Shown here: positions 14,926 through 44,330 of the stretch, piece by piece
Layout: every line of letters starts with the position of its first letter
How positions within the stretch are numbered: the first letter of the stretch is position 1
Source: Gammaproteobacteria bacterium
Lineage (GTDB): Bacteria > Pseudomonadota > Gammaproteobacteria > Steroidobacterales > GCA-2729495
Reading direction: 5' to 3'
DNA length: 54,748 nucleotides
Assembly: GCA_024277915.1 (NCBI GenBank)
Contig: JAJRUG010000012.1
Span: 1 to 54,748, forward strand
Notes under the pieces: generated by a model
Database searches by the model: none
What the model saw: only the letters and a program-made list of their open reading frames with translations
Told to the model about the DNA's origin: nothing
Program-made: the position numbers and the translations under genes

Positions 14926-15620
14926 TCGGTCTCCGGCCGCCAGCGATAGCCCATTCCGTATTCTGTCTGGATAGGATCGGCTGTTGCATCAACTTCGCGG
15001 ATTTTGCTTCGTATCCGTTTGATCATTGAAGTGACCGTGTTTTCCTCCACGACCATTTTTCCGGCTTCCATCAACTGGTCACGGGTTTTCAAATGACCTG
15101 GGTACCGGGCAAGTGCTGCCACAATCCAGCATTCGGTAACAGTCAGATCGATCAGCTGATTGTTCCACGAGGCTGTCGCACAGTCCATGTCAATCTCCAG
15201 TGGACCCTGCCGGATGGTTCCGGCATCACCGGAGGTGGTATCGCGTGCCTCGATTCTCCGGAACAATGCATTCACGCGCGCCATCAGGTGTACCAGAGAG
15301 ATGTCCTTGGTCAGGTAGTCATCTGCTTCAAGCCGCAATCCCGATACCTTGTCCGCATCGCTGTCCCGTGCTGTGAGAAAGATGATGGGCAAGGCGGTCG
15401 AACGCTGGCGCAACAGCCGGCATAGCTCAAACCCCCCTTCCGGCTCTTCGCCCAGGCCGATATCGATAATGACCAGATCCGGGAGCCGTTGTTCGAAGCC
15501 GGCCACAGCCGTGGCACGATCCGGGTAGTGAACAACCCGGTAACCCTGCTGCCGGAAGGCATCCTGGTAGTTGGCAGCCAATGCTGCCTCATCTTCGACA
15601 ATCGCGATCAGTTTGGGCAT
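14922..15620 (-). CDS. pdsR: Proteobacterial dedicated sortase system response regulator
   Basis: A 232-residue OmpR-like regulator: receiver with acidic residues at 9-11, phosphoacceptor Asp53 (VIIDIGLG) and switch Lys in YLTKDIS, then a winged helix ending MGYRWRPETE. The receiver start MPKLIAIVEDEAALAANYQDA and the C-terminal end fit the regulator class that accompanies dedicated sortases. It is the first gene of the regulator-kinase-oxidoreductase operon. A strong minus-strand terminator 20 bases upstream separates it from pdsO. The 37-bp inverted repeat at 16477-16513 is a candidate target. Confidence 0.85.
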   Translation of the reverse strand: MPKLIAIVEDEAALAANYQDAFRQQGYRVVHYPDRATAVAGFEQRLPDLVIIDIGLGEEPEGGFELCRLLRQRSTALPIIFLTARDSDADKVSGLRLEADDYLTKDISLVHLMARVNALFRRIEARDTTSGDAGTIRQGPLEIDMDCATASWNNQLIDLTVTECWIVAALARYPGHLKTRDQLMEAGKMVVEENTVTSMIKRIRSKIREVDATADPIQTEYGMGYRWRPETE

Positions 15621-25620: not shown

Positions 25621-25818
25621 CCTGTCGTGTTGTTATTGTTATGTTCAGGTTTCCGTAGCATATAAATACCAGAAAGGTGTTGTGTATTCCGGGAGGGCTG
25701 TCACAGAAACGGATTGTCGTACTGTTCATCTCGTGGTGGCCTGCTGTTGGACTCGGAGCAGGGCCGGGTGTCATAATTTCCGCAGGTATTCACCACAATA
25801 AGAATGAAAGGAACCGCC

Positions 25819-26343
25819 ATGAGCACTGCCCACCCCTGGCTTGAAGAAAAGCCCTGGCCGACAAAAAAAATGCCCAGGGAATTGCTGGAGCGTCATATCA
25901 ATCGGGTGCTCACCCTGACCAATATCGGGGTATTAGGCACCGTCAGCAAAAGCGGCGCCCCGATTGTCAGTCCGGTCGAGTTCTATGCGGACGGGCTGCA
26001 AATTTATATTTTTCCCCAGCCAAACAGCCCGAAACTCAAAGCAATGCAACGCGACCCGCGGGTTGGCTTCACGGTGATGAACCCGATGGCTGGTTGGGCC
26101 TGCACGATGGGTGCACAGGTTTTCGGCCAGGCTAATTTGCTGGATATCGGTACCCCCGAGTGGGAACACGGCATGAAAATCTTCAAGTGGGTGGCCTCAT
26201 CCTGGGAAATGGGCAGCGGCCTCGACCAGCCACCACAGGGTCAGTTGATGCGACTCGACCCGGACCGGATCGTGTTCACCGAGCATTTCATGCGGATTGA
26301 CGGCTGGGCGCCGCGTCAGATCTGGCGGAAAGATGAAGACTGA
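25819..26343 (+). CDS. Pyridoxamine 5'-phosphate oxidase-like split-barrel protein (FMN or F420 class)
   Basis: A 174-residue split-barrel flavin-type protein: VLGTVSKSGAPIVSPVEFYA and QPNSPKLKAMQRDPRVGFTV are the PPOX/FDOR signatures, where cofactor phosphate binds. In actinobacteria this fold holds many F420-dependent reductases, and this genome region encodes F420 synthesis, so F420 is a reasonable candidate cofactor. The ATG at 25819 is preferred because AGGA lies 8 bases before it. The kinase that follows is in the same reading frame after the TGA. Confidence 0.83.
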   Translation: MSTAHPWLEEKPWPTKKMPRELLERHINRVLTLTNIGVLGTVSKSGAPIVSPVEFYADGLQIYIFPQPNSPKLKAMQRDPRVGFTVMNPMAGWACTMGAQVFGQANLLDIGTPEWEHGMKIFKWVASSWEMGSGLDQPPQGQLMRLDPDRIVFTEHFMRIDGWAPRQIWRKDED

Positions 26344-27786: not shown

Positions 27787-27830
27787 TATTGGGGTATATT
27801 GCCCCAAATACAGCTATTTTTGGCTGTATT
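27773..27830 (+). promoter_or_regulatory. Promoter and hairpin upstream of the DUF5666 operon
   Basis: TTGACA (27773-27778) and TATATT (27795-27800) form a sigma-70 type promoter with a 16-base spacer at the end of the kinase gene. Just downstream, AATACAGC (27807-27814) and GCTGTATT (27823-27830) form an 8-bp inverted repeat inside the expected 5' leader, an operator or an mRNA hairpin ahead of the AGGAG that serves the next gene. Confidence 0.7.
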
Positions 27831-27845
27831 GATCAGGAGATGGGC

Positions 27846-29309
27846 ATGAAAATCAAATTTTTAGCGATATGTATTGCGCTGCTGATATTGGCAGCCTGCG
27901 GCGGGGGTAGTGGGTCACCGGCATCTGTCGCAGATCCGACCGGAGCTGCATCTACAGGAACAACGACCGGCACTGTGACCGGGTTTGGCAGTATTTACGT
28001 CAATGGAATCGAATTTGATACCAGCGGTACATCATTCGATATTGACGATGCTCCTGGTCAGGAAAGCGATTTAGAGGTGGGGCACGTTGTCACTATCGAG
28101 GGAACAGTTCATTCCGATGGAAGAACAGGTGTTGCGGAGCATGTGTCTTTCGAGGATGAAGTAGAAGGTCCAATCAGCAGCATCGATCTGGCAAATCAAT
28201 CCTTCGTGGTTGTTGGTCAGACGATTATCGTTGATGACCTGACATCCTTTGATGATGACATCGTCCCTGCCTCGTTTGAGGGTCTGGCAGTTGGTAATTT
28301 TGTTGAAGTCAGCGGCTATGCTGATGCGGAAGGCAATATTCGTGCTACCCGGGTAGAAGTAGAAACAGACAGTGGTCGAGAGATCGAAGTGAAAGGAATG
28401 GTTGCGAGCCTGGATAGCGCAGCCAGCACATTTCAGATCAATGATCTTGTCGTGGATTTCAGCAGTGCCACGCTGAGTGATTTCCCGGACGGTATAATTG
28501 CTGATGGCGATTACGTCGAAGTCAAAGGGACTGATTTCGGGCCGGCCGGTGAATTGATTGCAACAAGAGTTGAGTCTGAAGATGATCGTCATGACAACAG
28601 CGAAGATGATGATGTAGAGATCGAGGGGTATATCACCACTTTTGATTCTCCTGACAACTTTTCTGTTTCCGGAATGCCTGTTATAACCAATAGCCAGACG
28701 CAGTTCGAGCACGGCTCGGTTGACGATCTTGCACTGAACGTGAAACTGGAGGTAGAGGGTGTTGTTAACGCTGATGGTGTGCTGGTTGCGCGAGAGGTAG
28801 AGTTCAGAGAGCACCAGACCGATGAAAATGACATTAAGATAGAAGCTGCTGTGCAGGCCGTAGATTTCGAGGCTGGTATACTGACGATGCTGGGGATAAT
28901 CGTCCACGTTGACGAGATGACCCGGATTGAGGATGACAGCGACTCTGATGTTCGACGTTTTTCACTGGCCGATATTCAGGCAGGGAATTTCATCGAGGTA
29001 CGCGGTATTGAGATATTTGATGCCGACGGGTTGTCGACTGGCGAGATTCGGGCGCTACGCCTGGAGCGGGAAGACTTTGATGATGATGTATCGTTGCAGG
29101 GAGCGGTGACAGAATATTCCGAAGGTACATTGATGATTCTGGGTGTAACCATCGATACTCACGCGGGTACTGAATTTGAGGACGATGACAATTCACTCAG
29201 TTCGGCAGAGTTCTTTGCATTGCTTTCGGCAGGGGCGATCATCGAGGCAGAGGGTATTCAGGTTTCTGATGCCGGAATATCTGCTGACAAGCTTGAGTTC
29301 GAGGATTAA
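27846..29309 (+). CDS. DUF5666 repeat lipoprotein
   Basis: A 487-residue lipoprotein: MKIKFLAICIALLILAAC gives the lipobox, and CAGGAG lies 9 bases before this ATG. The rest consists of about six tandem beta-rich repeats of the DUF5666 type, each alternating a line like GTVTGFGSIYVNGIEFDT with VGHVVTIEGTVHSDGRTGVA (OB-fold-like strands). It is highly acidic. Function unknown; the repeats suggest an envelope binding scaffold. It has a close paralogue at 30170-31618, with a DUF6502 gene between. Confidence 0.85.
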   Translation: MKIKFLAICIALLILAACGGGSGSPASVADPTGAASTGTTTGTVTGFGSIYVNGIEFDTSGTSFDIDDAPGQESDLEVGHVVTIEGTVHSDGRTGVAEHVSFEDEVEGPISSIDLANQSFVVVGQTIIVDDLTSFDDDIVPASFEGLAVGNFVEVSGYADAEGNIRATRVEVETDSGREIEVKGMVASLDSAASTFQINDLVVDFSSATLSDFPDGIIADGDYVEVKGTDFGPAGELIATRVESEDDRHDNSEDDDVEIEGYITTFDSPDNFSVSGMPVITNSQTQFEHGSVDDLALNVKLEVEGVVNADGVLVAREVEFREHQTDENDIKIEAAVQAVDFEAGILTMLGIIVHVDEMTRIEDDSDSDVRRFSLADIQAGNFIEVRGIEIFDADGLSTGEIRALRLEREDFDDDVSLQGAVTEYSEGTLMILGVTIDTHAGTEFEDDDNSLSSAEFFALLSAGAIIEAEGIQVSDAGISADKLEFED

Positions 29310-29325
29310 CAGGTAAGTTATATTT

Positions 29326-30159
29326 GTGAATGGTGTAAATCGGCAAGCGGTTGTTCAGGCATGCAAGGCATTGCTGCGGCCGGTTGCCGGTTTCCTTCTC
29401 AAGTGCGGCATGACCTGGAAGGAATTTGCCGAAATTTCCAAGGCTGTATTCGTTGATGTCGCTGGTGAAGAGTATGGGATCCGGGGCCGAAAAACCAATG
29501 TGTCCAGGGTATCCATTCTCACCGGCATCAGTCGCAAGGAAGTCAAACGGCAGCGCGAATTGCTGACTGCCGGCCAGCCGCCACTACCGAACAAGACAAC
29601 GGACGCCACGCGTTTGCTATCCGGCTGGTACCAGGACCCGGATTTTATTGATCCTGCCGGCAAGCCATTGGTGCTGCCGCTGGAAGGTGACGGCGCCAGC
29701 TTCGCAACACTGTGGCAGCGATATGGTGGCGATGTTCCGGTGAGTACCATGCTCAAAGAGCTAGAGCGGGTTGGTGTGGTGAAACAATCTTCCGACGGGA
29801 GTCTTCAGGTAGTGAATCGCTACTATATGCCGGTTCAGTTTGATGCACAGTGGCTATTAAATGCTGGCAGCGTATTCAGGGACCTGGGGGAGAATATCAA
29901 TCACAATCTTTCGGCCGGCGATGAGACTCCCTCCCGGTTTCTTGGCCGGGCGACCAATCACAGCATCGAAGAGAGTCACTGGCCGGAGTTCAGGGAGTTT
30001 CTTGAATCGGAAGGTGAGGAATTTCTCGAGAAAGTTGATGACTGGCTCACCGAACACCAGGTAGCTGATGATGAAAGTAATGGCCGTGTCAGACGGTATA
30101 TACGATTAGGTGCAGGGCTTTTTTTGATCAAGGGCGAATCTCCGGATGATACGAAATAG
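29326..30159 (+). CDS. DUF6502 family protein
   Basis: A 277-residue soluble protein. The N-terminal part (LLRPVAGFLLKCGMTWKEFA, then VSILTGISRKEVKRQ) matches DUF6502 proteins, where a helix-turn-helix-like region is predicted; this may be a DNA-binding regulator. It begins with GTG, with AGGT about 9 bases upstream. It lies between two DUF5666 lipoprotein genes with gaps of 16 and 10 bases, so the three are very likely one operon. The pairing of these two families is seen repeatedly, but I know of no experimental description. Confidence 0.85.
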   Translation: MNGVNRQAVVQACKALLRPVAGFLLKCGMTWKEFAEISKAVFVDVAGEEYGIRGRKTNVSRVSILTGISRKEVKRQRELLTAGQPPLPNKTTDATRLLSGWYQDPDFIDPAGKPLVLPLEGDGASFATLWQRYGGDVPVSTMLKELERVGVVKQSSDGSLQVVNRYYMPVQFDAQWLLNAGSVFRDLGENINHNLSAGDETPSRFLGRATNHSIEESHWPEFREFLESEGEEFLEKVDDWLTEHQVADDESNGRVRRYIRLGAGLFLIKGESPDDTK

Positions 30160-30169
30160 GTGCAGAGCA

Positions 30170-31618
30170 ATGAACAAAATGCTGAGTTGTGTGATTGTCG
30201 CTGGTATGACTGTCAGCCTGCTGGCTGGCTGTGGCGGCGGTGGTGGCAGCGCGCAAATTGCCGGGATTGACAGGCTGGGAGTTTCCAGCGGAACGGTGAC
30301 CGGGTTTGGCAGCGTGTTCGTCAACGGCGTCGAGTTTGAGACCGACAATGCGGTATTTACTATCGACGGAGTGCCGGGTGTCGAAAGCGATCTGAATATC
30401 GGCCAGGTTGTGACTATTACGGGCAGCATTGATGTAAACGGGACAACAGGGACAGCCAACAGTGTTGTATTTGACGATGATGTTGAAGGGCCCATCAGCA
30501 GTATTGATCTCTCCGGCAATTCTTTCGTTGTTCTCGGGCAAACCGTACGGATAGATGGTGATACATCGTTTGATTCACAAATCACCCCGGCATCGGTAGC
30601 GGGTCTTTCTGTTGGTGAGGTTGTCGAGGTCAGCGGATTTGTTGATGGCAATATGGGGATTCGGGCTACCTATATCGAGCGCAAGGATGCGGGTAGTGAA
30701 TTCGAGCTGCAAGGTGTGGTCGATAGTCTGGATAGCGGTGCGAGCACTTTTCAGATCAATGGCTTCACTGTAGATTTCGCCAGCGCGATGCTCGACGGGT
30801 TTCCCTCAGGCATGATCAGTAATGGCGACAATGTTGAAGCCAAGGGTACGAGTTTCGGGGCTTCAGGTGAGCTGATTGCCAGCACAGTGGATTTCAAAGA
30901 TCAGGGGATTCCGGGTGCAGAGGGTGACGAGATTGAAATCGAGGGTTTTGTCACCCGCTTCGTATCCTTGACCGATTTCGATGTTTCCGGGGTGCCGGTT
31001 ACTACCAACGGACAAACGGAGTATTCGGGCGGACCATCCGCTTCACTTGCGCTGGATGTGAAAGTCGAAGTAGAGGGCATACTTTCCGCAAGCGGCGTCA
31101 TCGTCGCCGAGGAAATTGAATTTCGACCCGAAGCAGAGCTTCGCATCACGGCATTGGTGGATTCAGTAGACAGTGGCACAAATTCCCTGACCTTGCTGGG
31201 TGTCGCGATCCGCGTGAATCTGTTGACGCGGTTTGAGGACAACAGCTCCGCAGAGATCGCGCAGTTCTCACTGGCCAATGTGAATGCCGGTGAATACCTG
31301 ATCATTCGCGGGACCGGGGACACAACTGGTACTGCTGATGTGCTTGCGACATTGCTGGAGCGCGAAGATACCCCGGATCCACCGGTGGAGACTTCAATCC
31401 AGGGTTTTGTGACCGGGGTTGATAATCCGACACTCACTATCCTTGGTGTGACGATTGAAACCAGTGCCGGAACCGAGTTTGAAGACCAAAATGGAGATCC
31501 ACTGACTGCCGCAGAATTCTTCAACAGTGCTGTATCGGTGGATACCCTGATTGGAGCCAGCGGCGTTGAAAGTGACGGGCCGACTATTGTCGCTGATAAA
31601 GTGGAGATTGAGGATTAA
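30170..31618 (+). CDS. DUF5666 repeat lipoprotein, paralogue of the upstream gene
   Basis: A 482-residue lipoprotein with MNKMLSCVIVAGMTVSLLAGC as signal and lipobox. Repeat units such as GTVTGFGSVFVNGVEFETDN align with the protein at 27846-29309 over nearly the whole length, including shared GPISSID and SLDSGASTFQINGF-like segments, so this is an in-place duplication that has since diverged. ATG 30170 is preferred; the frame is open to 30146 without a better site. It converges on the potassium channel gene. Confidence 0.85.
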   Translation: MNKMLSCVIVAGMTVSLLAGCGGGGGSAQIAGIDRLGVSSGTVTGFGSVFVNGVEFETDNAVFTIDGVPGVESDLNIGQVVTITGSIDVNGTTGTANSVVFDDDVEGPISSIDLSGNSFVVLGQTVRIDGDTSFDSQITPASVAGLSVGEVVEVSGFVDGNMGIRATYIERKDAGSEFELQGVVDSLDSGASTFQINGFTVDFASAMLDGFPSGMISNGDNVEAKGTSFGASGELIASTVDFKDQGIPGAEGDEIEIEGFVTRFVSLTDFDVSGVPVTTNGQTEYSGGPSASLALDVKVEVEGILSASGVIVAEEIEFRPEAELRITALVDSVDSGTNSLTLLGVAIRVNLLTRFEDNSSAEIAQFSLANVNAGEYLIIRGTGDTTGTADVLATLLEREDTPDPPVETSIQGFVTGVDNPTLTILGVTIETSAGTEFEDQNGDPLTAAEFFNSAVSVDTLIGASGVESDGPTIVADKVEIED

Positions 31619-34771: not shown

Positions 34772-35398
34772 GTGATCCTGGTGACAGCACAGCAGCAGAT
34801 TTCAGCCCTTCAGTTTGATCCGACCTTTGGAGTATTTGTAGCCCAGGATTCGAGACCGGAAGGGCTCAGCGGTGTCAGTCTGGAAACCTTAAGCCCGTTA
34901 CAACGCTCGTTATTGTTGATTGACGGTACGGTCACAAAGTTTCTGGAGGCCTACCTGTTCGAACCGGTGCAGGTCACACGGCTCGAACAATCAGGTCGAG
35001 TGCTCGATCAGGATGATCAATGGCTGCAGGCTCCCGCAGGTACTGAGCTTATTGATCGCAGTGTGATGCTCTGCGGTGTGGAAAGCGGGCAGCTGCTTGC
35101 CTATGCCGAGTCCACCATTGTTACCGGGCGTCTGACCCCTGCCATGCTACGCGCGCTTGCTGCCGACACGGATACGGGCGGGCTAGGCCGGATTTTACTC
35201 GATAGCCGTTTGGAATCCCGCCGTGAAGCGCTGTGGTTTGGCCTGGAGAGTCCCGTATCCCGATTTCATCGCGAGGCAGCGAAACTGTATGATGGAGCCT
35301 GTCTGCTACGAACCTACCGGATTCTCGTGTCCGATCACCCGTTAATGGTCATTACTGAACGGTTTCCACTGATGCCTCAATCGGCTTGCCCGGATTGA
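34772..35398 (+). CDS. Chorismate lyase-like protein (DUF98/UbiC family)
   Basis: A 208-residue protein resembling chorismate pyruvate-lyases of the DUF98 branch: SLLLIDGTVTKFLEAYLFEP, IDRSVMLCG, LLAYAES and a C-terminal RTYRILVSDHPLMVITERF. These enzymes split chorismate into 4-hydroxybenzoate and pyruvate, feeding ubiquinone or secondary metabolites. The GTG at 34772 or 34781 can start it (AGGTGA precedes the second). It may be a housekeeping enzyme or part of the nearby biosynthetic block; the sequence does not decide. Confidence 0.75.
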   Translation: MILVTAQQQISALQFDPTFGVFVAQDSRPEGLSGVSLETLSPLQRSLLLIDGTVTKFLEAYLFEPVQVTRLEQSGRVLDQDDQWLQAPAGTELIDRSVMLCGVESGQLLAYAESTIVTGRLTPAMLRALAADTDTGGLGRILLDSRLESRREALWFGLESPVSRFHREAAKLYDGACLLRTYRILVSDHPLMVITERFPLMPQSACPD

Positions 35399-35472: not shown

Positions 35473-36039
35473 ATGTTAACTGATCTCCAGAACTTGTTTT
35501 CTCAACAGCAGCTAATCGCGGCAGTTGCCGTGATTGCTTTGATTACCGGCTGGGTGATCGCCAGAATCAGCGCCCGGATGAAACGCAGCACTGGCTCGGG
35601 GGACAGCAGTGTCGAGTTGCATCGTCACATACGGGCTTTGGAAGCAGATCTTCGTGTGGCTCAGAAGAATGCAAATGAGGCGACCGAAAAGTTGACCACC
35701 GAGCATCAGGATCTTGAGGAAGCCAAAAAGAGTTTATTCGAAACCCAGTCATGGCTGAAAGAAAAAGAAGAACAGATTGTTCAAGTCAAGGATGATCTTC
35801 AATTTGAATGTTCCAAGACCAAGGACTTGAGAAGGGAACTGGCGGACCGGGCCGAGACGTCAATTCGTGCCGAAGCACAGCTCAAACAGGCTGAGACAGA
35901 ACTGAGTGTTGCACAGGTGGGTTCGGAGGCTGTGATAGATGAAGTGAACCGTCTCGAAGCCGAGCGCAAGGAACTGACCGGGAAACTCAGGGCATTGCAG
36001 GACAATATGCTGGATCCTGACGAACTGCTGGGTCATTAA
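35473..36039 (+). CDS. Membrane-anchored coiled-coil protein
   Basis: A 188-residue protein: an N-terminal membrane helix (LIAAVAVIALITGWVIARI) followed by about 130 residues of Glu/Lys/Gln-rich heptads (HIRALEADLRVAQKNANEAT and so on), a long coiled coil. No family recognised. It precedes the LLM oxidoreductase by 18 bases, so a shared transcript is possible. Such proteins often tether envelope machinery, but no partner is indicated. Confidence 0.7.
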   Translation: MLTDLQNLFSQQQLIAAVAVIALITGWVIARISARMKRSTGSGDSSVELHRHIRALEADLRVAQKNANEATEKLTTEHQDLEEAKKSLFETQSWLKEKEEQIVQVKDDLQFECSKTKDLRRELADRAETSIRAEAQLKQAETELSVAQVGSEAVIDEVNRLEAERKELTGKLRALQDNMLDPDELLGH

Positions 36040-36057: not shown

Positions 36058-37101
36058 GTGAAACTGGGACTGATCGCCGGCTATTCGCCGGCCAAACTGA
36101 ATTTGCCCATGGAGCAGATTCTTGAGGCGGAACAACTGGGCTACGATTCTGTATGGACATCGGAAGCCTACGGGTCTGACGCTGTATCGCCGGCCGCCTG
36201 GATCCTGGCTCGCACCTCAACCATCAAAGTAGGTACCGCCATCATGCAGATGCCGGCACGTACTCCGACCTGTGCTGCAATGACGGCGATGACACTATCA
36301 GCATTATCCGGGAATCGGTTTTTGCTGGGTCTGGGGCCTTCCGGCCCCGGTGTTGTTGAAGGCTGGTACGGCGTGCCCTATGGTCGGCCGATGACCCGTA
36401 CCCGGGAATACATCGATATCATTCGTCAGGTGCTGGTTCGGGAAGCTCCCCTGGTACATAGCGGCCACCACTATCAGATTCCCTATTCGGGTGAAGATGC
36501 TACCGGTCTTGGGCGACCGATGAAAAGTATCCTGCATGGAGATCCGGGGCTAAAGATCTATACGGCATCCATAACACCCGCCGGCTTGCGGTGCAGTGCG
36601 GAGCTTGCCGATGGGGTATTTCCAATCTGGATGAATCCGGAACGTTTTGATTTGATTTCCGGGCCGCTCGAAGAAGGTTTCGCGAAGGCGGAGGGTGACA
36701 AGGGACTGTCGGATTTTGATGTCGCTCCCTTCATTCAGGTTTCAATGGGTGATGACCTTGATCGTTGTCGGCTGCCGATCAAGGCAAACATGGCACTGTA
36801 TATCGGTGGCATGGGCCCGAAGAGCAAGAATTTCTACAATGACTATGCCCGGCAGATGGGATACGAAGAAGCCGCAGAGAAAATTCAAACACTTTATTTA
36901 TCGGGCGAAAAGAAACAGGCGACGATGGCGGTGCCTGATCAGCTGGTTGATGATTGTGCGTTGGTGGGGCCTCCCGACCGGATCAGGGCTCGGCTCGCAG
37001 TATGGAAAGAAGCCGGCAACAGGGGGCAGGTGGGCTCTATGATGATTGGCGGAGCCTCGACTGAGGCGTTACGTTTGTTGGCTGAAGAGTTGCTGCCTTA
37101 A
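36058..37101 (+). CDS. LLM-class F420-dependent oxidoreductase
   Basis: A 347-residue TIM-barrel enzyme of the luciferase-like superfamily. The segments DSVWTSEAYGSDAVSPAAW, VGTAIMQMPARTPTCAAM and RFLLGLGPSGPGVVEGWYG are characteristic of F420-dependent LLM oxidoreductases, where a bulge after strand 3 contacts F420. It starts with GTG after CAGGGAA. It faces the F420 biosynthesis operon tail to tail, with a long inverted repeat in the 97-base gap. The substrate is unknown. With the coenzyme made next door this is the best candidate user of F420 in the window. Confidence 0.9.
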   Translation: MKLGLIAGYSPAKLNLPMEQILEAEQLGYDSVWTSEAYGSDAVSPAAWILARTSTIKVGTAIMQMPARTPTCAAMTAMTLSALSGNRFLLGLGPSGPGVVEGWYGVPYGRPMTRTREYIDIIRQVLVREAPLVHSGHHYQIPYSGEDATGLGRPMKSILHGDPGLKIYTASITPAGLRCSAELADGVFPIWMNPERFDLISGPLEEGFAKAEGDKGLSDFDVAPFIQVSMGDDLDRCRLPIKANMALYIGGMGPKSKNFYNDYARQMGYEEAAEKIQTLYLSGEKKQATMAVPDQLVDDCALVGPPDRIRARLAVWKEAGNRGQVGSMMIGGASTEALRLLAEELLP

Positions 37102-37147
37102 CGTTTGCGCCGGTCTCGCATTGTTTGAATCATCGTGCCAGTCATTC

Positions 37148-37234
37148 GGCATTGCCAGCCCGATCTCCTTTTGGTGGGATGGCTCCCTGCGGTCCGCTTT
37201 ATTCCCTCCAAAAGGAGATCGGGCTGGCAATGCC
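37148..37234. repeat. 27-bp perfect inverted repeat overlapping the 3' end of fbiC
   Basis: A 27-base arm (37148-37174) recurs as an exact reverse complement at 37208-37234 around a 33-base loop. Its right arm forms the last coding codons of fbiC (tail GIASPISFW). No T-run follows, so it is not a standard terminator, although it could stop convergent transcripts with Rho or protect mRNA ends. The form recalls REP/MITE hairpins; no second copy was noticed in the window. Confidence 0.75.
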
Positions 37235-39589
37235 TTGGTTCGCCGCAAGCGATTTTGCCTGATAGGACCGCGTCATCTGAGTATTGTTCGGGTTTCCGTA
37301 CAGCGTGCTTCGCTGGCGGGGCGTTCGATCGCACTCTGTAATGAGTTGATCCATTTTCGCCGGTGTCAGTTCCTGACCGTGATCGGCACCTGCAGCGCGG
37401 GAAATTGATTCATTCATCAGTGTGCCACCGAGATCATTGGCTCCCGCCGCAAGACAGGCACTGGCGCCAGCCTTGCCCAGCTTTACCCATGAAGTCTGAA
37501 TGTTGCTGATGACCGGGTTGAGTACCAGTCGTGCAACAGCATGCATGAGCAGGTTCTCACGCCAGGTCGGGCCGAGTCGTGCCTGGCCGCGGCGAAACAA
37601 TGGCGCTTCCATATGGATGAAAGGCAAGGGGACCAGTTCGGTGAACCCGCCGGTTTCGGACTGGAGGTCGCGAATGGCCAGCAAATGCCGGGCCCAGTGA
37701 ACAGGGGATTCCATGTGGCCGAACATGATGGTGGAGGTTGTTGGAATGCCCAGTGAGTGAGCAGTGCGCATGATATTCAGCCAGTCTGCAGTCATGACTT
37801 TATCCGCGCAGAGGGTTACCCGAATATCGTCATCGAGTATTTCAGCTGCAGTGCCGGGCAGGCTCGCCAGGCCAACTGACTTGAGCTCGGTCAGGAATGC
37901 CTTGTCTGAAAGCCCCAGGGTTGCAGCACCATGACTGACTTCCAGAGGAGAAAATGCATGTATATGAATATCAGGGGCAGCTTTCTTTACAGCCTGACAA
38001 ATATCCAGATAGGTCTGGCCGGTAAAGCTCGGGTGAATACCGCCTTGTAAACAGACTTCGGTAGCGCCCCGCTCCCAGGCTTCCTTTGAGCGCCGCCCGA
38101 TTTCTTCCATCTCCAGCAGGTAGGGTTTGCCCCGCAGGTTTTCGCTGGTCTTTCCTTTGGCGAATGCACAAAACTGGCATTTGTACCGGCAAATATTCGT
38201 GTAGTTGATATTGCGATTGACGACATAGGCAACAGAGTTGCCACAGGTGTCGATCCGGAGGCCATCAGCGATCGTGCAGACTGTTTCGAAATCCGGGCCT
38301 CTGGCATTGAACAGTCGTTCGATTTGCTGTTCGCCGAGACGTTCACCTGCCTGTGCCTGTTGCAGGATATCCGTCAGCTTGTTGTCACGAAGTATGCTTG
38401 ATGTACCGGATACGGTGAACGGCAGTCGGGCCGAAGAACCGGCCGCCCAGCTGTCACAGCGAGCATAGCCTTCCGCATCTGAATGTCTGAATAATTGTGG
38501 TCGTAATTTTTCGTGAACCCAATCGCCGGCGTCCCGAACGTAGTCAGGATAGAGCGTTAGCCTCTGCACCAGGGTTTTGCCTGCAGCCGCTGTCCGGGTG
38601 GCGAGTTTGTCGAGCTGCGGCCAGGGAGACTCGGGGTTGACATGATCCGGAGTGACCGGTGATACACCGCCCCAGTCATTAATACCGGCATTGATCAGCT
38701 CGCTGAGCCGGCCTGCGTTGAGGTTAGGCGGGGCTTGTATATTCATTTCGGAACCGAAGATGTGCCGGGCCATGGCAATCGTCCACAACAGTTCTTCGAA
38801 GGGTGGTTCCGGTACTGCGTGCATCAGCGTGGCGGGCTTGGGTACAAAGTTCTGAATAATAATTTCCTGCAGATGACCGAATTCGATATGCAGGTCTCTC
38901 AGTTTGATCAGGCTGTCGATGCGGTCAATTCGTGATTCGCCAATGCCGATCAGGATGCCGGTAGTCAGTGGTACTTTCGCGATGCCTGCATCCCGAATGG
39001 ACTGCAGTCTGACCACAGGATCTTTATCCGGTGAACCGAAATGTGCACCACCACGTTGAAGCAAGGCCGGTGATGTTGACTCCAGCATGATGCCCATGGA
39101 TGGCGCGACTTCGCGAAGGCTTCGGTAGTCATCAAGATCAAGCACGCCGGGATTCAGATGTGGCAGGAGGCCGGTTTCCCGATGCACCAGCGTCGCGACC
39201 TGCTTCAGGTAGCTGATTGTCGATTCATGCCCCAGAGCCTCAAGTGCCTCGCGAGCTGCCCGGTAGCGAAGTTCGGGTTTGTCTCCCAGGGTAAATAATG
39301 CCTCCCTGCAGCCGACCGCGAGCCCCGCCCGGGCGATTTCCAGAACCTGATCGGGTGACAGGAAAATATTATCAAGCTGACGGGGTGTTTTGGCATAGGT
39401 GCAGTAATGACAAACATCCCTGCACAGTTCGGTCAACGGGATAAACACCTTGCGGGAATAAGAGACAATCGCGCCCTTGCCCTCGTCTCTGATAGCTGCA
39501 GCCTCAAGTGTCAATTGCTCCAGAGAAGTGGATTGCCCCAATTCAATGGCAGTTTCCTGATCCAGTGCTGCGGTAGCCGGGTGTCTCAT
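37199..39589 (-). CDS. fbiC: FbiC: 7,8-didemethyl-8-hydroxy-5-deazariboflavin (F0) synthase, CofG-CofH fusion
   Basis: A 796-residue fusion of two radical-SAM domains. The N-terminal CofG half carries CRDVCHYCTYA (4Fe-4S ligands, CxxxCxxC) and the C-terminal CofH half CRYKCQFCAF. Together they build F0 from tyrosine and 5-amino-6-ribitylaminouracil, the first committed step to coenzyme F420. The fused form is typical of actinobacteria; archaea and cyanobacteria use two proteins. The end after RTPRQRSTLYG is longer than usual by about 30 residues, and its last part is encoded by a 27-bp inverted repeat. It overlaps cofC by 4 bases. Confidence 0.95.
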   Translation of the reverse strand: MRHPATAALDQETAIELGQSTSLEQLTLEAAAIRDEGKGAIVSYSRKVFIPLTELCRDVCHYCTYAKTPRQLDNIFLSPDQVLEIARAGLAVGCREALFTLGDKPELRYRAAREALEALGHESTISYLKQVATLVHRETGLLPHLNPGVLDLDDYRSLREVAPSMGIMLESTSPALLQRGGAHFGSPDKDPVVRLQSIRDAGIAKVPLTTGILIGIGESRIDRIDSLIKLRDLHIEFGHLQEIIIQNFVPKPATLMHAVPEPPFEELLWTIAMARHIFGSEMNIQAPPNLNAGRLSELINAGINDWGGVSPVTPDHVNPESPWPQLDKLATRTAAAGKTLVQRLTLYPDYVRDAGDWVHEKLRPQLFRHSDAEGYARCDSWAAGSSARLPFTVSGTSSILRDNKLTDILQQAQAGERLGEQQIERLFNARGPDFETVCTIADGLRIDTCGNSVAYVVNRNINYTNICRYKCQFCAFAKGKTSENLRGKPYLLEMEEIGRRSKEAWERGATEVCLQGGIHPSFTGQTYLDICQAVKKAAPDIHIHAFSPLEVSHGAATLGLSDKAFLTELKSVGLASLPGTAAEILDDDIRVTLCADKVMTADWLNIMRTAHSLGIPTTSTIMFGHMESPVHWARHLLAIRDLQSETGGFTELVPLPFIHMEAPLFRRGQARLGPTWRENLLMHAVARLVLNPVISNIQTSWVKLGKAGASACLAAGANDLGGTLMNESISRAAGADHGQELTPAKMDQLITECDRTPRQRSTLYGNPNNTQMTRSYQAKSLAANQGIASPISFWRE

Positions 39590-40254
39590 GCTACTGCTGC
39601 CTGTTCTTCGAGCCGCCGGGCAATTCCGGATTGTTCGACACAGGTTCGTGTATGTCCCGGTACCGGATTGGCGCAGAAACGGCGCAGATCATCCGGCGTA
39701 TCGATATCGTGGGAAAAAGCAGGGATGCTTATCTGCCTCGCTTTTATATTCAGCCCCGATGCGGCTTCCATATGCTTGCGTGCACTGTCAGCACCGAACT
39801 GAAAGGGCAGGGCATCAGCCGGATTAATGATCAGCGCGTTGGTGCCACCGTCGATTTCAGCGGGACAAATTACCAGGCCCTCCCGGTAACAATTCAGCAG
39901 CGTGACAATATCAGTGCTTTTTATCATTGGCAGATCACCATGGATGATGAAAAGATTTTCCACTCCTTCTGATCCGAGTTGTGCCGCTGCCCGGTTGAGT
40001 CCATCGCAGAGATTTGTGACGGGCTCTTCCCGAAGTACCCTGCAATCAAGTTCCTGTGCGATCCCGGTGACTCTGGCGTCGTTGCTGAACAGAACCACCT
40101 GACTGATTTGCGGCGTACTGGTCAGAGCAGTGAGTACATCGCGCAACATGCTTTCCGCCAGGGCGGCACATTCAGAAGTGCGCAGGATGGGCGCAAGCCG
40201 GGTTTTTGCCCGGGAAAGCTTTTTGATGGGCACTAGCGCGCAAAAATCGGTCAT
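39586..40254 (-). CDS. cofC: CofC: 2-phospholactate / phosphoenolpyruvate guanylyltransferase
   Basis: A 222-residue nucleotidyltransferase. VPIKKLSRAKTRLAPIL is the GTP-binding start of CofC/FbiD, FIIHGDLPMIKSTDI supplies the metal-binding Asp, and the DGGTNALIINPADALPFQFG segment is family-specific. It activates 2-phospholactate, phosphoenolpyruvate or 3-phosphoglycerate with GTP; which one cannot be read from sequence. ATGA overlaps on both sides tie it to fbiC and cofD. Confidence 0.93.
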   Translation of the reverse strand: MTDFCALVPIKKLSRAKTRLAPILRTSECAALAESMLRDVLTALTSTPQISQVVLFSNDARVTGIAQELDCRVLREEPVTNLCDGLNRAAAQLGSEGVENLFIIHGDLPMIKSTDIVTLLNCYREGLVICPAEIDGGTNALIINPADALPFQFGADSARKHMEAASGLNIKARQISIPAFSHDIDTPDDLRRFCANPVPGHTRTCVEQSGIARRLEEQAAVA

Positions 40255-41213
40255 CGGGCAGCCTTTGTTATAGAGTCAGCGAATTCAATCGCAAACCGGG
40301 CAAGTCGGGTTTTATCCTCAATTGACCGCATGACAGTCCGGGTGCTCATTACCGCCATTCCCTGGCCAGGCCTGAGCGCCTGGATTTCGTCTGAAAGCCC
40401 GCAGTCAACCGTATCCAGTATGAAGCCATCCAGCAGCTGTTGGTAGTGGCGGGCTACCGTGACAGCCGATGGTTGGTCACCCAGTTCAGTCATGATTTTT
40501 GCCGTCGGTCCCTTGATGGCTGCACCACCGACTATAGGGGAGATGGCCAGCACCGGTGCCGGGCTGTCTGATATTGCCTGGCAGATCGCTGGTATGGCAA
40601 GAATGGGGTCAATACTCAGGTACGGGTTTGATGGCGCCAGCACAATGGCCCTGAGCCCTGGATGTGCCAGCACTGCGCGGATTGCGGGGGACGGATCTGC
40701 TGTTTGCGCTCCGGAATAATGGAAACCCGAGACCCGGGGTTTCGCCTGTCTGCGAACAAAATAGTCCTGAAAATCCAGCTCACCCTGATCTGTCTGAATT
40801 CGTGTTCGAACCTTGTCATCGGTCATTGGCAGAATTCCGGACTCGATGCCAAACCGCTGGCATAGATCGACAGTGACATTCGAGAGTGTTGCCCCGGCCG
40901 AAAGACGTCGGGTACGTTCGATATGTGTGGCCAGGTCGCGGTCCCCGAGGCGGAACCAGGTTTCACCGCCCAGTGCCTCCACGGCATCCATGAATTGCCA
41001 GGATTCCTGTTTTCGACCCCAGCCGGTTTCCGGGTTGACCTCGCCTGACAGGGTATACATCAACGTATCGAGATCAGGGGAAATGCACAGGCCCAGGTGG
41101 GTGAAGTCATCGCCGGTATTCGCGATGACTGCAAGTTCTTCCGGTGGCATCACCTGACTCATGCCGAGTACCAGTTTCGCACCACCGACTCCCCCGGATA
41201 AAACAACAATCAT
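40251..41213 (-). CDS. cofD: CofD: phospholactate/PEP transferase forming (dehydro-)F420-0
   Basis: A 320-residue CofD/FbiA enzyme. MIVVLSGGVGGAKLVLGM is the typical start, IANTGDDFTHLGLCISPDLD follows, and SPIVGGAAIKGPTAKIM is also conserved. It transfers the GMP-activated phospho-acid from the CofC product onto F0, giving F420-0 or its dehydro form. The ATG at 41213 is used since the family starts at this MIVVLSGG and it overlaps the cofE stop codon by 4 bases; the frame is open 12 residues further. Confidence 0.95.
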   Translation of the reverse strand: MIVVLSGGVGGAKLVLGMSQVMPPEELAVIANTGDDFTHLGLCISPDLDTLMYTLSGEVNPETGWGRKQESWQFMDAVEALGGETWFRLGDRDLATHIERTRRLSAGATLSNVTVDLCQRFGIESGILPMTDDKVRTRIQTDQGELDFQDYFVRRQAKPRVSGFHYSGAQTADPSPAIRAVLAHPGLRAIVLAPSNPYLSIDPILAIPAICQAISDSPAPVLAISPIVGGAAIKGPTAKIMTELGDQPSAVTVARHYQQLLDGFILDTVDCGLSDEIQALRPGQGMAVMSTRTVMRSIEDKTRLARFAIEFADSITKAAR

Positions 41214-41968
41214 CGAAACAGATCGCCGGCTCTGGGGCGTTGCAAGCATCCTGCAGTCTGGTCGGAACCGGTGTTGGCGAGCCCTCTGATCAACACTACC
41301 GGGGTTGCCTCAGCGCCTTCGCCGATCAGCAGATTTGCTGCACTGGCAATACAATCCCCGGTTGCAGTTTCGCTGACCATAAGTGTTCGGCCAAACAAAT
41401 CTGTATTGCCACGGAGATCATCCAGCATGTTCACGCCGGAACAACCAATCGCAATGGCGGTAGTGCCGAGTCGCCAGGGGCGGCCGACGCTGTCCGAGAT
41501 CACGATACCGGGGAGCATGTCAAAATGTAATCCTAACGCCGTGCGAATGTTCTTTGCTGAGCGATCCGGATTTTCCGGAAGCAGCAGTACAATATTGTCA
41601 TCGCCTGCGACGTTCGAGTGATCAATGCCTGCATTGGCCAGGACGACCCCCAGCCGGTGCTCAACGATGATGACACCGGGGCTGGTACGAACCACTTCGC
41701 TGGACTCTCTGAGAATCAGCTCTACCAGCCGCGGATCCTTATCAACTTCAATCGCAAGTTTATTCGCCCGGGCAGAAGCCGTGATTTCATCAAGACTGAT
41801 CAGGCAACCCTCTGCCTTGGAGACTATTTTCTGTGCAATAACCAGTACATCACCATTGTGCAGCTCCAGTTCGGCGCGACCCAGCGCGGCGATGATGATT
41901 TCCGGCAAATCATCACCTGGTTCGATCATCGGGATCCCCGGAAGGGAGAACAAGGATAGTTGTGACAT
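41210..41968 (-). CDS. cofE: CofE: coenzyme F420-0 gamma-glutamyl ligase
   Basis: A 252-residue ligase. GDVLVIAQKIVSKAEGCLIS, VIIVEHRLGVVLANAGIDHS and VISDSVGRPWRLGTTAIAIG are CofE signatures. It adds one or more gamma-linked glutamates to F420-0 using GTP. It has only the CofE domain; the C-terminal reductase domain of actinobacterial FbiB is absent, so reduction of dehydro-F420-0 would need another enzyme if the PEP route is used. It follows npdG by 18 bases. Confidence 0.94.
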   Translation of the reverse strand: MSQLSLFSLPGIPMIEPGDDLPEIIIAALGRAELELHNGDVLVIAQKIVSKAEGCLISLDEITASARANKLAIEVDKDPRLVELILRESSEVVRTSPGVIIVEHRLGVVLANAGIDHSNVAGDDNIVLLLPENPDRSAKNIRTALGLHFDMLPGIVISDSVGRPWRLGTTAIAIGCSGVNMLDDLRGNTDLFGRTLMVSETATGDCIASAANLLIGEGAEATPVVLIRGLANTGSDQTAGCLQRPRAGDLFR

Positions 41969-41986
41969 CAGGCTGGCAGGCCAGGG

Positions 41987-42658
41987 TTATTCCGGAATTC
42001 CGGTAATCCTGATTCCGGCGTGCGGTGCGCCGTAACGTTTGTTGAGCAGGATCAATATCGAGGTGAGTGCTTCGGCAGCTGCTGCATTGTCGAGTGGGCC
42101 GGCGTGCCAGGCCCGGAACCCGGCTTGCTGTGCCAGCCCGATGACGATTTCCCTGGCGGCCACGACATCGCCGGTCACCAGTACATCACAATCTCCGTTC
42201 TCATCTGTGGCCAGAAGATCGGCGGCGACATTCTGAAAAGCGGAAACTACCGTGACCTCCTTGCCTAATGTGCGCTGGGTAATCACCGCAGCGCAGCCCT
42301 CTGGAGGCAGTTGTACCCGTGCTACTTTGGGCGGCACCAGCGGAACAGTGGTATCAATCAGGATTTTTCCGGCAACCCCCGGCTTGATTCGCTCGAGAAT
42401 CGCCGGATGGTGTGAAAAAGGCACTGTGATGACCACCAGGTCGCTTTCCTGCGCGGCTTCGAGGTTTTCTTTCCCGGATATTGCCGTGCCCGGCAGTTCC
42501 TTTAATAGCGCTGCTGCCGAACTGATCGCTTTATCAGGAGTGCGGGACCCGATAATGATGGTATAGCCGGCTTTTGCCCAGCGTCTGGCCAGCCCGCTGC
42601 CCAGTGCGCCCGTTCCGCCGATCAGGCTGATGGTTTTGATTTCTGATTTGATGTCCAT
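41987..42658 (-). CDS. npdG: F420H2:NADP+ oxidoreductase (Fno/NpdG)
   Basis: A 223-residue reductase: [20 protein letters not shown] is the NADPH-binding Rossmann loop, followed by [19 protein letters not shown] and [12 protein letters not shown], all features of Fno/NpdG. It passes hydride between NADPH and F420, providing reduced cofactor for the LLM and PPOX enzymes. It is first in the operon npdG-cofE-cofD-cofC-fbiC. Its ATG has no obvious ribosome-binding site, and a TAGAAT lies about 5 bases upstream on its strand, so the mRNA may be leaderless. Confidence 0.93.
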
Positions 42659-42699
42659 GCCGCATTCTAATGCAAGCGTGGCTGGTGCAAAATAGCGAT

Positions 42700-42717
42700 A
42701 ACACCCGTCGGGGTGTT
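42700..42717. promoter_or_regulatory. Palindrome in the shared F420 / biosynthetic-cluster promoter region
   Basis: AACACCC (42700-42706) and GGGTGTT (42711-42717) form a perfect inverted repeat around GTCG. It lies between the divergent npdG (start 42658) and queD (start 42748) genes, the only space for both promoters, so a regulator binding here could control both operons. No regulator gene is adjacent. Confidence 0.45.
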
Positions 42718-42747
42718 CAAAACAAGAAGCGTTGGCAGGAGAAAGAC

Positions 42748-43110
42748 GTGGAAATATACAAGGAGTTCACATTCGAAGCGGCTCACAGGCTGCCTCGGGT
42801 TCCCCAGGGGCACAAGTGCAGTCGGCTGCATGGCCATTCATGGCGGGGGACAATCTATGTTGAGGGAAATGTTGATGAGACCACAGGGTGGATAATGGAC
42901 TATGCGGGGATCAAGAAGGCATTCCGACCCATTTACGATCAACTGGATCACTACTACCTGAACGATATCGAGGGTCTGGAGAATCCGACCAGTGAAGTGC
43001 TGGCAAAGTGGATCTGGGATCGTCTGAAGCCGGAGCTGCCGATGTTGTCACGTATTGTAATCAACGAAACCTGTACTACCGGTTGCATTTACCAGGGTGA
43101 GAATGCCTGA
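42748..43110 (+). CDS. queD: QueD-like 6-carboxy-5,6,7,8-tetrahydropterin synthase
   Basis: A 120-residue QueD/PTPS-family protein. [10 protein letters not shown] and CSRLHGHSW give the zinc-binding histidines and the catalytic Cys; LDHYYLN and [11 protein letters not shown] are conserved; INET supplies the pterin-binding Glu. QueD turns dihydroneopterin triphosphate into the 6-carboxypterin used for 7-deazaguanine (queuosine and deazapurine antibiotics). GTG at 42748 has AGGAG 7 bases upstream; the frame is open earlier without such a signal. It overlaps the deaminase start by 8 bases. QueC and QueE are not in the window. Confidence 0.93.
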
Positions 43111-43579
43111 TTCCGATCAAGATCATATGCGCGTTGCAATCGATATTGCGCGCCGTGGCTTTCTGGCAGGGGAGGCTCCGATTGGCGCTTGTCTGGTTCG
43201 GGACGGAGAAATTGTCGTTACCGGTCATAATGGAGTGATCGGAGATCTGGATATCACCGCCCATGCTGAAATAAGAGTTATGCGTGAAGCCTGTCGTGCG
43301 CTGCGCAAGCTGGATCTGGCCGGTTGCACGCTGGTCTCAACAGTTGAGCCCTGCTGCATGTGTCTGACAGCCAGCCACTATGCGCATATCGACCGGATCG
43401 TATTCGGTGCCAGCCTCGCCGATATTGATGCGGTGACTCACAATGAACTGTTACTTTCCCATCAGACGATACTGGCAGACTGTGATCGCAAGCCGGTAGT
43501 TCTCGGGGATGTGCTGGGAGATGAATGCAGGGCATTACTGAGGGAGTGGGCTGATCGGCGGCCTGGGCTGATTACCTGA
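43103..43579 (+). CDS. Nucleoside/nucleobase deaminase (CDA/TadA-like fold)
   Basis: A 158-residue zinc deaminase: HAEIRVM supplies the zinc-ligand His and the proton-shuttling Glu, and VEPCCMC the two cysteines. The total size and GASLADIDA segment resemble guanine or cytosine deaminases and tRNA adenosine deaminase more than cytidine deaminase. It is translationally coupled to queD (the ATG overlaps the queD stop by 8 bases), so it may act on the same purine or pterin pathway, or in the NRPS pathway that follows. The frame starts at 43097 with GTG; the ATG at 43103 better fits the AGGGTGAG site. Confidence 0.9.
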
Positions 43580-43589
43580 CCGGAAACCC

Positions 43590-44330
43590 ATGCCTTCCCA
43601 GTACGATCATATCGCAGACCTATACCAGCGCTCAAAAGAAACTCCGCTGCGGCGCTACGTTGAAGCCTGGTCATTTTTCAAGCTGATCGGTGATGTATCC
43701 GGCAAGTCGGTGCTGGATCTTGGCTGTGGTGAAGGGTTTTATACCAGGGAACTCAAACGTCGCGGTGCGGCGCGTGTTCTGGGGGTGGATATCTCTGCGA
43801 CAATGATTGAGATGGCGAAGCAGCAGGAAAATGAACACGCGCTCGGTATTGAATATGTGTGCAGCGATGTAAAAGAGATGCCGGATCCTGGCGAGTTTGA
43901 TCTGGTCGTTGCTGCTTATCTGTTGCATTACTCGGAATCTGTTGCAGATCTGTTAACCATGTGTCAGCAAATTCGCCGGAGTCTCGCCCGCGGCGGGCGG
44001 TTTATCGCCCTGAATGAGAATCCCGATCAACTGCCGGAACACTATTCGGGTTACGAGCAATATGGATTCGGCAAGAGTGCAGAGTTGCCGCATCAGGATG
44101 GTGCCGCGATTAACTACTGGATTGTTGCCGGTCGCGAAGTTTTCCGGTTCAGTGTTTGTCATTTTGATCGGGTGACCTATCAGAGGGCGCTTGGTCTGGC
44201 AGGCTTCGACGAGATCGTGTGGCAGCCACTCAGCCTGGATCCCCGGGGTGTTGAAAAACACGGTGAGGAGTACTGGCAGAAGTACCTCAATAATCCGCCG
44301 GTCACTGGTTTGACCAGCCGGGCCTGTTGA
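43590..44330 (+). CDS. Class I SAM-dependent methyltransferase
   Basis: A 246-residue methyltransferase with [20 protein letters not shown] (SAM loop), [11 protein letters not shown] and [11 protein letters not shown]. Its end ([20 protein letters not shown]) resembles small-molecule N- or C-methyltransferases. It lies 10 bases after the deaminase gene and 17 bases before the NRPS gene, so it is probably a tailoring enzyme of that pathway, acting on the peptide or a precursor. The substrate is not predictable. Confidence 0.9.

Follow-up and report, generated by a model that had tools for sequence, protein, structure and literature searches.

A coenzyme F420 biosynthesis operon and its nonribosomal peptide synthetase neighbour in a family of uncultured Gammaproteobacteria

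Is a coenzyme F420 operon in a gammaproteobacterial genome a working part of its metabolism, and if so, from which precursor is the cofactor made, which enzymes use it and how did the genes come to be there? These questions are raised by a stretch of 54,748 nucleotides (hereafter the window), contig JAJRUG010000012.1 of the assembly GCA_024277915.1 (order Steroidobacterales, family GCA-2729495), in which the genes npdG, cofE, cofD, cofC and fbiC lie together. The source genome is a 3.10-Mb assembly of 178 contigs, 92.5% complete, and the window is its contig 154, taken from base 1. A 2021 review reports biochemical evidence for alpha- and betaproteobacteria, and in the accessible part of its text the word Gammaproteobacteria does not occur (PMC8498797). 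Judged by titles, and with most subscription journals uncovered, the literature yielded no paper on F420 in Gammaproteobacteria, with or without a nonribosomal peptide synthetase (NRPS).

The F420 operon is genuine and known in kind; its novelty is the breadth of its retention across an uncultured gammaproteobacterial family. We consider it highly probable, from comparative analysis of the genes, that this is a working operon kept since the family ancestor, whose product would be made from 2-phospholactate or phosphoenolpyruvate (PEP), not from 3-phosphoglycerate (3-PG), and would serve oxidoreductases of the luciferase-like monooxygenase (LLM) family. We infer the production of F420, its chemical form and its users from the genes.

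The operon and its distribution in the family

The original prediction of a gene order npdG-cofE-cofD-cofC-fbiC holds: the minus strand carries all five genes, and when curated NCBIfam equivalog cut-offs were applied to all five proteins, each passed at least one (Table 1). The 4-base ATGA overlaps at the cofE/cofD, cofD/cofC and cofC/fbiC junctions are exact, as had been described, and by coordinates 18 bases separate npdG from cofE. The cofD open reading frame (ORF), taken from its first ATG, begins at 41249; the start at 41213, which yields the ATGA overlap, is the probable one. CofE indeed lacks the reductase domain of FbiB, being a single-domain protein of 252 amino acids whose matches in the PDB are solely CofE chains (7uld, 2phn and 2g9i); it stays below the cut-off of a second model, NF009809 (246.8 vs 274 bits). 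CofD matches 3c3d with 204.7 bits and 6uvx (FbiA) with 176.5 bits, and the translation of fbiC contains two CxxxCxxC motifs. At the end of fbiC, one arm (37203-37234) of a 32-bp inverted repeat, which looks like a two-way terminator, covers approximately the last eleven codons of the gene, and FbiC matches to most relatives stop about 10-30 residues short of the end of the window protein.

Several signs of constraint suggest that the operon is very probably working. In comparison with a genome of the same genus (G001), the ratio of nonsynonymous to synonymous substitution rates (dN/dS) is 0.061 for fbiC, 0.116 for cofC, 0.099 for cofD, 0.092 for cofE and 0.083 for npdG, and 0.035 for LLM1, the LLM gene that faces fbiC; dS is near saturation (up to 2.3), so these ratios are rough, yet clearly below one, and the gene at 34772 yielded no dS. 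In the alignment, CofC retains the three metal-binding Asp residues and, from the PEP site seen in Mycobacterium tuberculosis FbiD (Mtb FbiD), the Thr, the Ser and the Gly.

The same locus is found in G001, with 67-89% protein identity, and over nine genera of the family. An FbiC match is present in 31 of the 36 other family genomes, a CofE match in 33 (30 above the cut-off and three partial), and at least one of the two in 34. Among the genomes without an FbiC match, the contig of G008 stops 0.6 kb beyond cofE, and partial CofE matches remain in G020 and G025. Outside the family the picture is different: in other families of the order FbiC and CofE occur together in the same three of 23 genomes, and neither was matched in the remaining 20. 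In a sample of the whole class, FbiC is present in 15 of 369 genomes (E <= 1e-100), including the source genome and one family member, which bears out, for this class, the earlier statement that F420 is patchy in proteobacteria.

Precursor route, origin and users of F420

The original prediction left three precursors open: 2-phospholactate, PEP and 3-PG. The choice can now be narrowed with the residues of CofC and with the presence or absence of a reductase, the latter because, according to the accessible part of PMC8498797, the PEP route needs a dehydro-F420 reductase and the known ones have the nitroreductase fold. CofC of the window has Gly at the position equivalent to S162 of the Mycetohabitans enzyme, as in Mtb FbiD, and at this diagnostic position an alignment of 98 CofC rows, which include some genomes twice, has Gly in 96, Asp in two and Ser or Thr in none. 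A search with the nitroreductase model PF00881 gave no match in the source genome, so that neither an FbiB C-terminal domain nor another reductase of this fold was seen in this 92.5% complete genome. The same model remained unmatched in 14 of the 32 FbiC-positive family genomes (the source genome included), among them the single-contig G003 and G010, while it found at least one protein in each of the 20 FbiC-negative genomes outside the family and in all 14 reference genomes of a control search, in which E. coli too has such proteins.

The alternative that survives best, unlikely as we judge it to be, is a route of the mycobacterial type, in which PEP gives dehydro-F420 that is then reduced by a nitroreductase-fold FbiE encoded elsewhere in the genome. 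It would fit the Gly that CofC shares with Mtb FbiD, the PF00881 proteins present in 18 of the 32 FbiC-positive family genomes, and the precedent of an independent FbiE in Thermomicrobium roseum, as given in the part of PMC8498797 available. Against it stand the 14 genomes without a match, two of them on a single contig, and the surroundings of the operon itself: among 80 named loci, none of the 17 that belong to the family has a nitroreductase match near the operon. None of the PF00881 proteins of the 18 genomes exceeds the FbiB C-terminal cut-off. Outside the family such a match does lie near the operon in two loci (L074 and L099) and, weakly, in a third (L055). Nitroreductase-fold matches were also seen within ORFs of about 1960 amino acids (G007 C42:34999, G014 C123:9767, G022 C76:29738 and G031 C24:64140), which are perhaps domains of other large synthetases.

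The 3-PG route, which would lead to 3PG-F420 as in Mycetohabitans, has the attraction of requiring no reductase and so of fitting the genomes without a nitroreductase (PMC8764529, accessible part). We nevertheless regard it as quite improbable, as the same text describes Ser or Thr at the S162 position of Mrhiz-CofC, the Mycetohabitans enzyme, as diagnostic for 3-PG, a residue that the window replaces by Gly and that none of the 98 rows carries, and at the second position the window has Leu, not Met. With the 3-PG route thus disfavoured by these residues, the Gly of CofC and the many genomes without a nitroreductase match leave three options: 2-phospholactate as precursor, PEP combined with an unknown reductase, or a pathway that stops at dehydro-F420. 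That CofD scores somewhat higher against 3c3d, an archaeal protein, than against the FbiA of mycobacteria may be a weak pointer to 2-phospholactate. As to the reduction, PMC6450877 (in the part accessible) speaks of a hypothetical reductase, CofX, calls the archaeal reduction step unresolved and offers no candidate for a lactate kinase.

In the reading that we prefer, FbiC would make the deazaflavin FO (7,8-didemethyl-8-hydroxy-5-deazariboflavin), and CofC, with GTP, would activate a three-carbon phospho-acid, most likely 2-phospholactate or PEP and not 3-PG. CofD would couple the activated acid to FO, CofE would attach the glutamate tail, and NpdG would transfer hydride from NADPH to F420, the reduced cofactor then passing to LLM-family oxidoreductases, some of which are encoded at the locus. 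In at least a part of the family, where no nitroreductase-fold reductase was detected, saturated F420 would arise via 2-phospholactate or by an unknown reductase, or dehydro-F420 would be the final form.

A number of observations weigh against this reading. Neither FbiC nor CofE was matched in two family genomes, G021 (92% complete) and G035 (78%), and the majority of the genomes are fragmented. There is a TAA within the FbiC frame of G002 and the CofE match of G028 is split in two pieces, either assembly errors or decay, and npdG was not found between cofE and queD in G005 (locus L029). The Gly rule is based on few characterised enzymes, and Mmaz CofC carries Tyr there; a PF00881 protein is, as said, present in more than half of the FbiC-positive family genomes, with three in the single-contig G005, and a stand-alone FbiE need not reach the FbiB C-terminal cut-off. 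The near-saturated dS blunts the comparison with G001. Finally, 6-13 LLM enzymes are still present in each of the five family genomes where FbiC is unmatched, and kinship among the relatives means that LLM counts are not phylogenetically independent.

The suggestion that the whole cassette was acquired horizontally has to be divided in two. A recent import into this one genome, or mis-binning of the contig, is very improbable. The rarity of FbiC in the class and in the other families of the order would be in its favour, and a plasmid collection contains FbiC on 58 records from proteobacteria and actinobacteria, some being as large as chromosomes. However, the locus is common to G001 and the nine genera, and this family-wide synteny rules such an event out; the GC content of the operon (54.7-56.0% in 2-kb windows) lies inside the range of the window as a whole (50.7-56.5%). 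Phylogenies of the Cof proteins, proposed earlier as a check, were built with FastTree from query-anchored pieces and are quoted with local support values. The family stays together in the 82-locus FbiC tree with a support of 0.975, along with two outsiders (L030 and G038); it stands alone in the CofC tree (0.945), less cleanly in the CofD tree, with three outsiders (0.943), and alone with weak support in the CofE tree (0.238). All 82 loci have FbiC; the CofD tree lacks 15 of them, the CofE tree 20 and the CofC tree 12. Family membership of the named loci L021-L053 was inferred from coordinate matches to the genomes, L025 being counted as family on synteny alone and L030 as non-family though it falls within the family in the FbiC tree.

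The second part of the suggestion fares better. Being nearly family-wide, the operon must be old in the family, and because it is rare in the order, an old transfer into the family ancestor is possible, even likely; the distribution suggests that this ancestor acquired it. In the FbiC tree the family lies inside a large proteobacterial assemblage, well away from the group of Nonomuraea, Nocardia, Rhodococcus RHA1 and Paenarthrobacter. Two actinobacterial sequences, from Rhodococcus WAY2 and Miltoncostaea, branch beside the proteobacterial assemblage, which could therefore conceivably have an actinobacterial source.

As to candidate users, which the original prediction had placed at several sites of the window, LLM counts across whole genomes rise with the operon. 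Counted as PF00296 matches (E <= 1e-10), the 35 FbiC-positive genomes have a median of 13 (range 4-25) and the 20 FbiC-negative genomes outside the family a median of 0 (range 0-2). The three FbiC-positive genomes of other families have 14, 8 and 5, and within a single other family the FbiC-positive G046 has 8 vs one in the FbiC-negative G059. LLM1, a member of the TIGR03559 subfamily, is a putative F420 user, and in relatives up to three extra LLM enzymes lie beside or between the genes of the operon-NRPS locus. The claim of a tail-to-tail arrangement is right for LLM1, which converges with fbiC, and wrong for the second LLM gene (11846-12883, minus strand), which overlaps a histidine-kinase ORF of the same direction by 4 bases and thus is not tail-to-tail with the operon. 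The LLM2 ORF, the histidine-kinase-like ORF and a response-regulator-like ORF are mutually chained by overlaps over 11846-15620, possibly an LLM-two-component operon. The protein at 25804-26343 proposed as a PPOX-fold user does exceed the PNPOx_N cut-off, but all its matches to F420-dependent NCBIfam models remain below theirs (best 38.4 vs 79.05). That the operon should serve only to make FO as a photolyase antenna, the later genes being relics, is, judged from the operon genes and the LLM counts, extremely improbable: a deazariboflavin antenna chromophore is described for a photolyase (PMC9178010, accessible part), but cofC, cofD, cofE and npdG are intact, constrained and kept in most family loci, and LLM enzymes expand along with the operon.

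The NRPS block and other genes of the locus

The most novel and least explained part of the locus is its linkage to an NRPS. Beyond npdG and queD lie genes for a deaminase-like protein, a methyltransferase and an NRPS with adenylation (A), peptidyl carrier protein (PCP) and condensation (C) domains. We examined 31 family genomes (G015, G020, G021, G025, G030 and G035 were left out of the count); in six of them (G018, G027, G028, G029, G032 and G033) the contig stops before the methyltransferase. The other 25, on contigs long enough to show it, cover each of the nine genera encountered in the family, and all have the deaminase-methyltransferase-NRPS block next to the operon. In every one of the 25 the first A domain starts 18-96 bases past the methyltransferase, measured from hit to hit. 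Among the 17 named family loci, the NRPS is seen in 12, four end too early (L021, L024, L027 and L031), and in L028 (G023) it lies only farther out. Outside the family, such NRPS domains were absent from the covered stretches of all 63 F420 loci; 41 of these loci are at least 15 kb long, so an NRPS could be hidden in the short ones.

The first A domain (A1) is interrupted by an insert resembling protein arginine methyltransferases (PRMT), with best PDB matches to PRMT6. In all 24 genomes where it could be read, A1 has Gly at the position where A domains for alpha-amino acids have Asp235. An aryl acid or a pterin as starter of A1 would fit this Gly, but the best solved relative of A1 is the A domain of linear gramicidin synthase. 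A2 reads [VI]DW in 22 of 22 genomes, and the third A domain reads DVGxxVS[IV]D in eight of 12 and is of a DIE type in four; by specificity codes, A2 may be beta-alanine-like and A3 ornithine-like, readings on which nothing here is built. There are six A domains in G003, G010 and G013 and five in G009 and G016, and the last NRPS protein of G013 has a PCP as its final domain and matched no thioesterase.

Such a constant neighbourhood suggests that the NRPS and F420 may belong together, and points to a natural product conserved over an uncultured family. It is conceivable, though rather unlikely, that the family matures F420 without a nitroreductase-fold enzyme, through bacterial 2-phospholactate or a non-nitroreductase CofX (the first candidates for which would be the operon-travelling NpdG and LLM enzymes), and that the operon provides the cofactor for a family-wide NRPS locus of five to six modules, with F420-dependent LLM enzymes carrying out the last steps on its product. 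The operon and the NRPS may possibly also be two stable neighbours without a common function. The locus bears on the completion of F420 where FbiB is absent: here bacteria, some with a genome on a single contig, keep the operon yet show no nitroreductase-fold protein, and the use of the finding is that it decouples F420 synthesis from this fold in actual genomes.

Among the other genes, queD is divergent from npdG and stands at the locus in a part of the family; no queD was detected there in G004, G007, G009, G011, G014, G016, G022 and G031. As a dedicated member of the NRPS pathway it is weakened by this patchy position and by two further results: its product is the only 6-pyruvoyl tetrahydropterin synthase (PTPS) copy in all six genomes searched, and QueC is strongly matched in nine of ten genomes, the source genome having weak partial matches only. 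GTP cyclohydrolase I is encoded by two or three genes; in four genomes out of ten (G003, G010, G013 and G016) one of these genes lies at the distal end of the NRPS or about 5 kb past it, copies lie near a contig start in the source genome (G000 C152:315-845) and in G001 (C282:10-540), and G005 and G009 have none near the NRPS. Farther from the operon, 27789-29309 and 30146-31618 encode two large proteins that resemble each other, both starting with a Gly-rich, lipoprotein-like stretch; one gene lies between them, and they look like paralogues.

Table 1. Genes and other features of the F420 locus (window coordinates; scores in bits)
Feature	Coordinates	Strand	Evidence or remark
npdG, NADPH:F420 oxidoreductase (Fno)	41987-42658	-	TIGR01915, 188.9 vs cut-off 149.8
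cofE, single-domain F420-0:glutamate ligase	41210-41968	-	TIGR01916, 260.1 vs cut-off 180.65
cofD, transferase	40251-41213	-	TIGR01819, 306.6 vs cut-off 257.45
cofC, guanylyltransferase	39586-40254	-	TIGR03552, 155.4 vs cut-off 105
fbiC, fused CofG-CofH FO synthase	37199-39589	-	NF006687, 1115.9 vs cut-off 1018; TIGR03550 and TIGR03551 above cut-off
32-bp inverted repeat	37148-37234	.	97% complementary; between LLM1 and the end of fbiC
LLM1, F420-dependent-type (Rv3520c-type) oxidoreductase	36058-37101	+	TIGR03559, 368.3 vs cut-off 335; convergent with fbiC
queD	42670-43110	+	TIGR03367, 107.2 vs cut-off 89.25; divergent from npdG; single PTPS copy in genome
TadA/guanosine-deaminase-like protein	43097-43579	+	below TadA equivalog cut-off, 89.4 vs 150
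S-adenosylmethionine-dependent methyltransferase	43590-44330	+	PF13649; conserved between deaminase and NRPS
NRPS, cut by contig end	44327-54748	+	A1 (PRMT-like methyltransferase insert), PCP, C, A2, PCP, C, A3, PCP, C
Rv2949c-like chorismate lyase-family protein	34772-35398	+	near LLM1, also in several relatives
Coiled-coil-like protein	35473-36039	+	near LLM1 in part of the family

Comparison with known systems

A close arrangement is that of plasmid 2 of Aromatoleum aromaticum (NC_006824), which has the same genes, shares the order npdG-cofE-cofD-cofC and encodes a likewise fused FbiC of 59% identity. There, however, fbiC comes first and the genes lie among transposases on a plasmid typed as conjugative, whereas in the window fbiC comes last, in a family-conserved locus beside an NRPS. 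In locus L176, on a plasmid of Paraburkholderia sprentiae that is also typed as conjugative, F420 genes lie beside pqqABC and an LLM gene.

The interrupted A domain of the NRPS differs from that of LynB3 in being part of the first module and in having Gly at the Asp235 position. The two have in common a PRMT-like methyltransferase within an NRPS A domain, as far as the accessible part of the LynB3 paper goes (PMC10127204).

With the mycobacterial pathway of FbiA, FbiB, FbiC and FbiD the window shares the fused FbiC and the Gly/Ser/Asp pattern of FbiD, and it departs from it in a CofE without the reductase domain, in the position of npdG inside the operon and in the part of the family where no nitroreductase-fold protein was detected. 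The 3PG-F420 pathway of Mycetohabitans is likewise Gram-negative and needs no reductase, and 7p97 is the best PDB sequence match of the window CofC, in which, however, the diagnostic Ser has become Gly. The archaeal CofC, CofD and CofE resemble the window in a single-domain CofE without a nitroreductase partner and in a CofD closer to 3c3d than to 6uvx, whereas in the window FbiC is fused and CofC has Gly where Mmaz CofC has Tyr.

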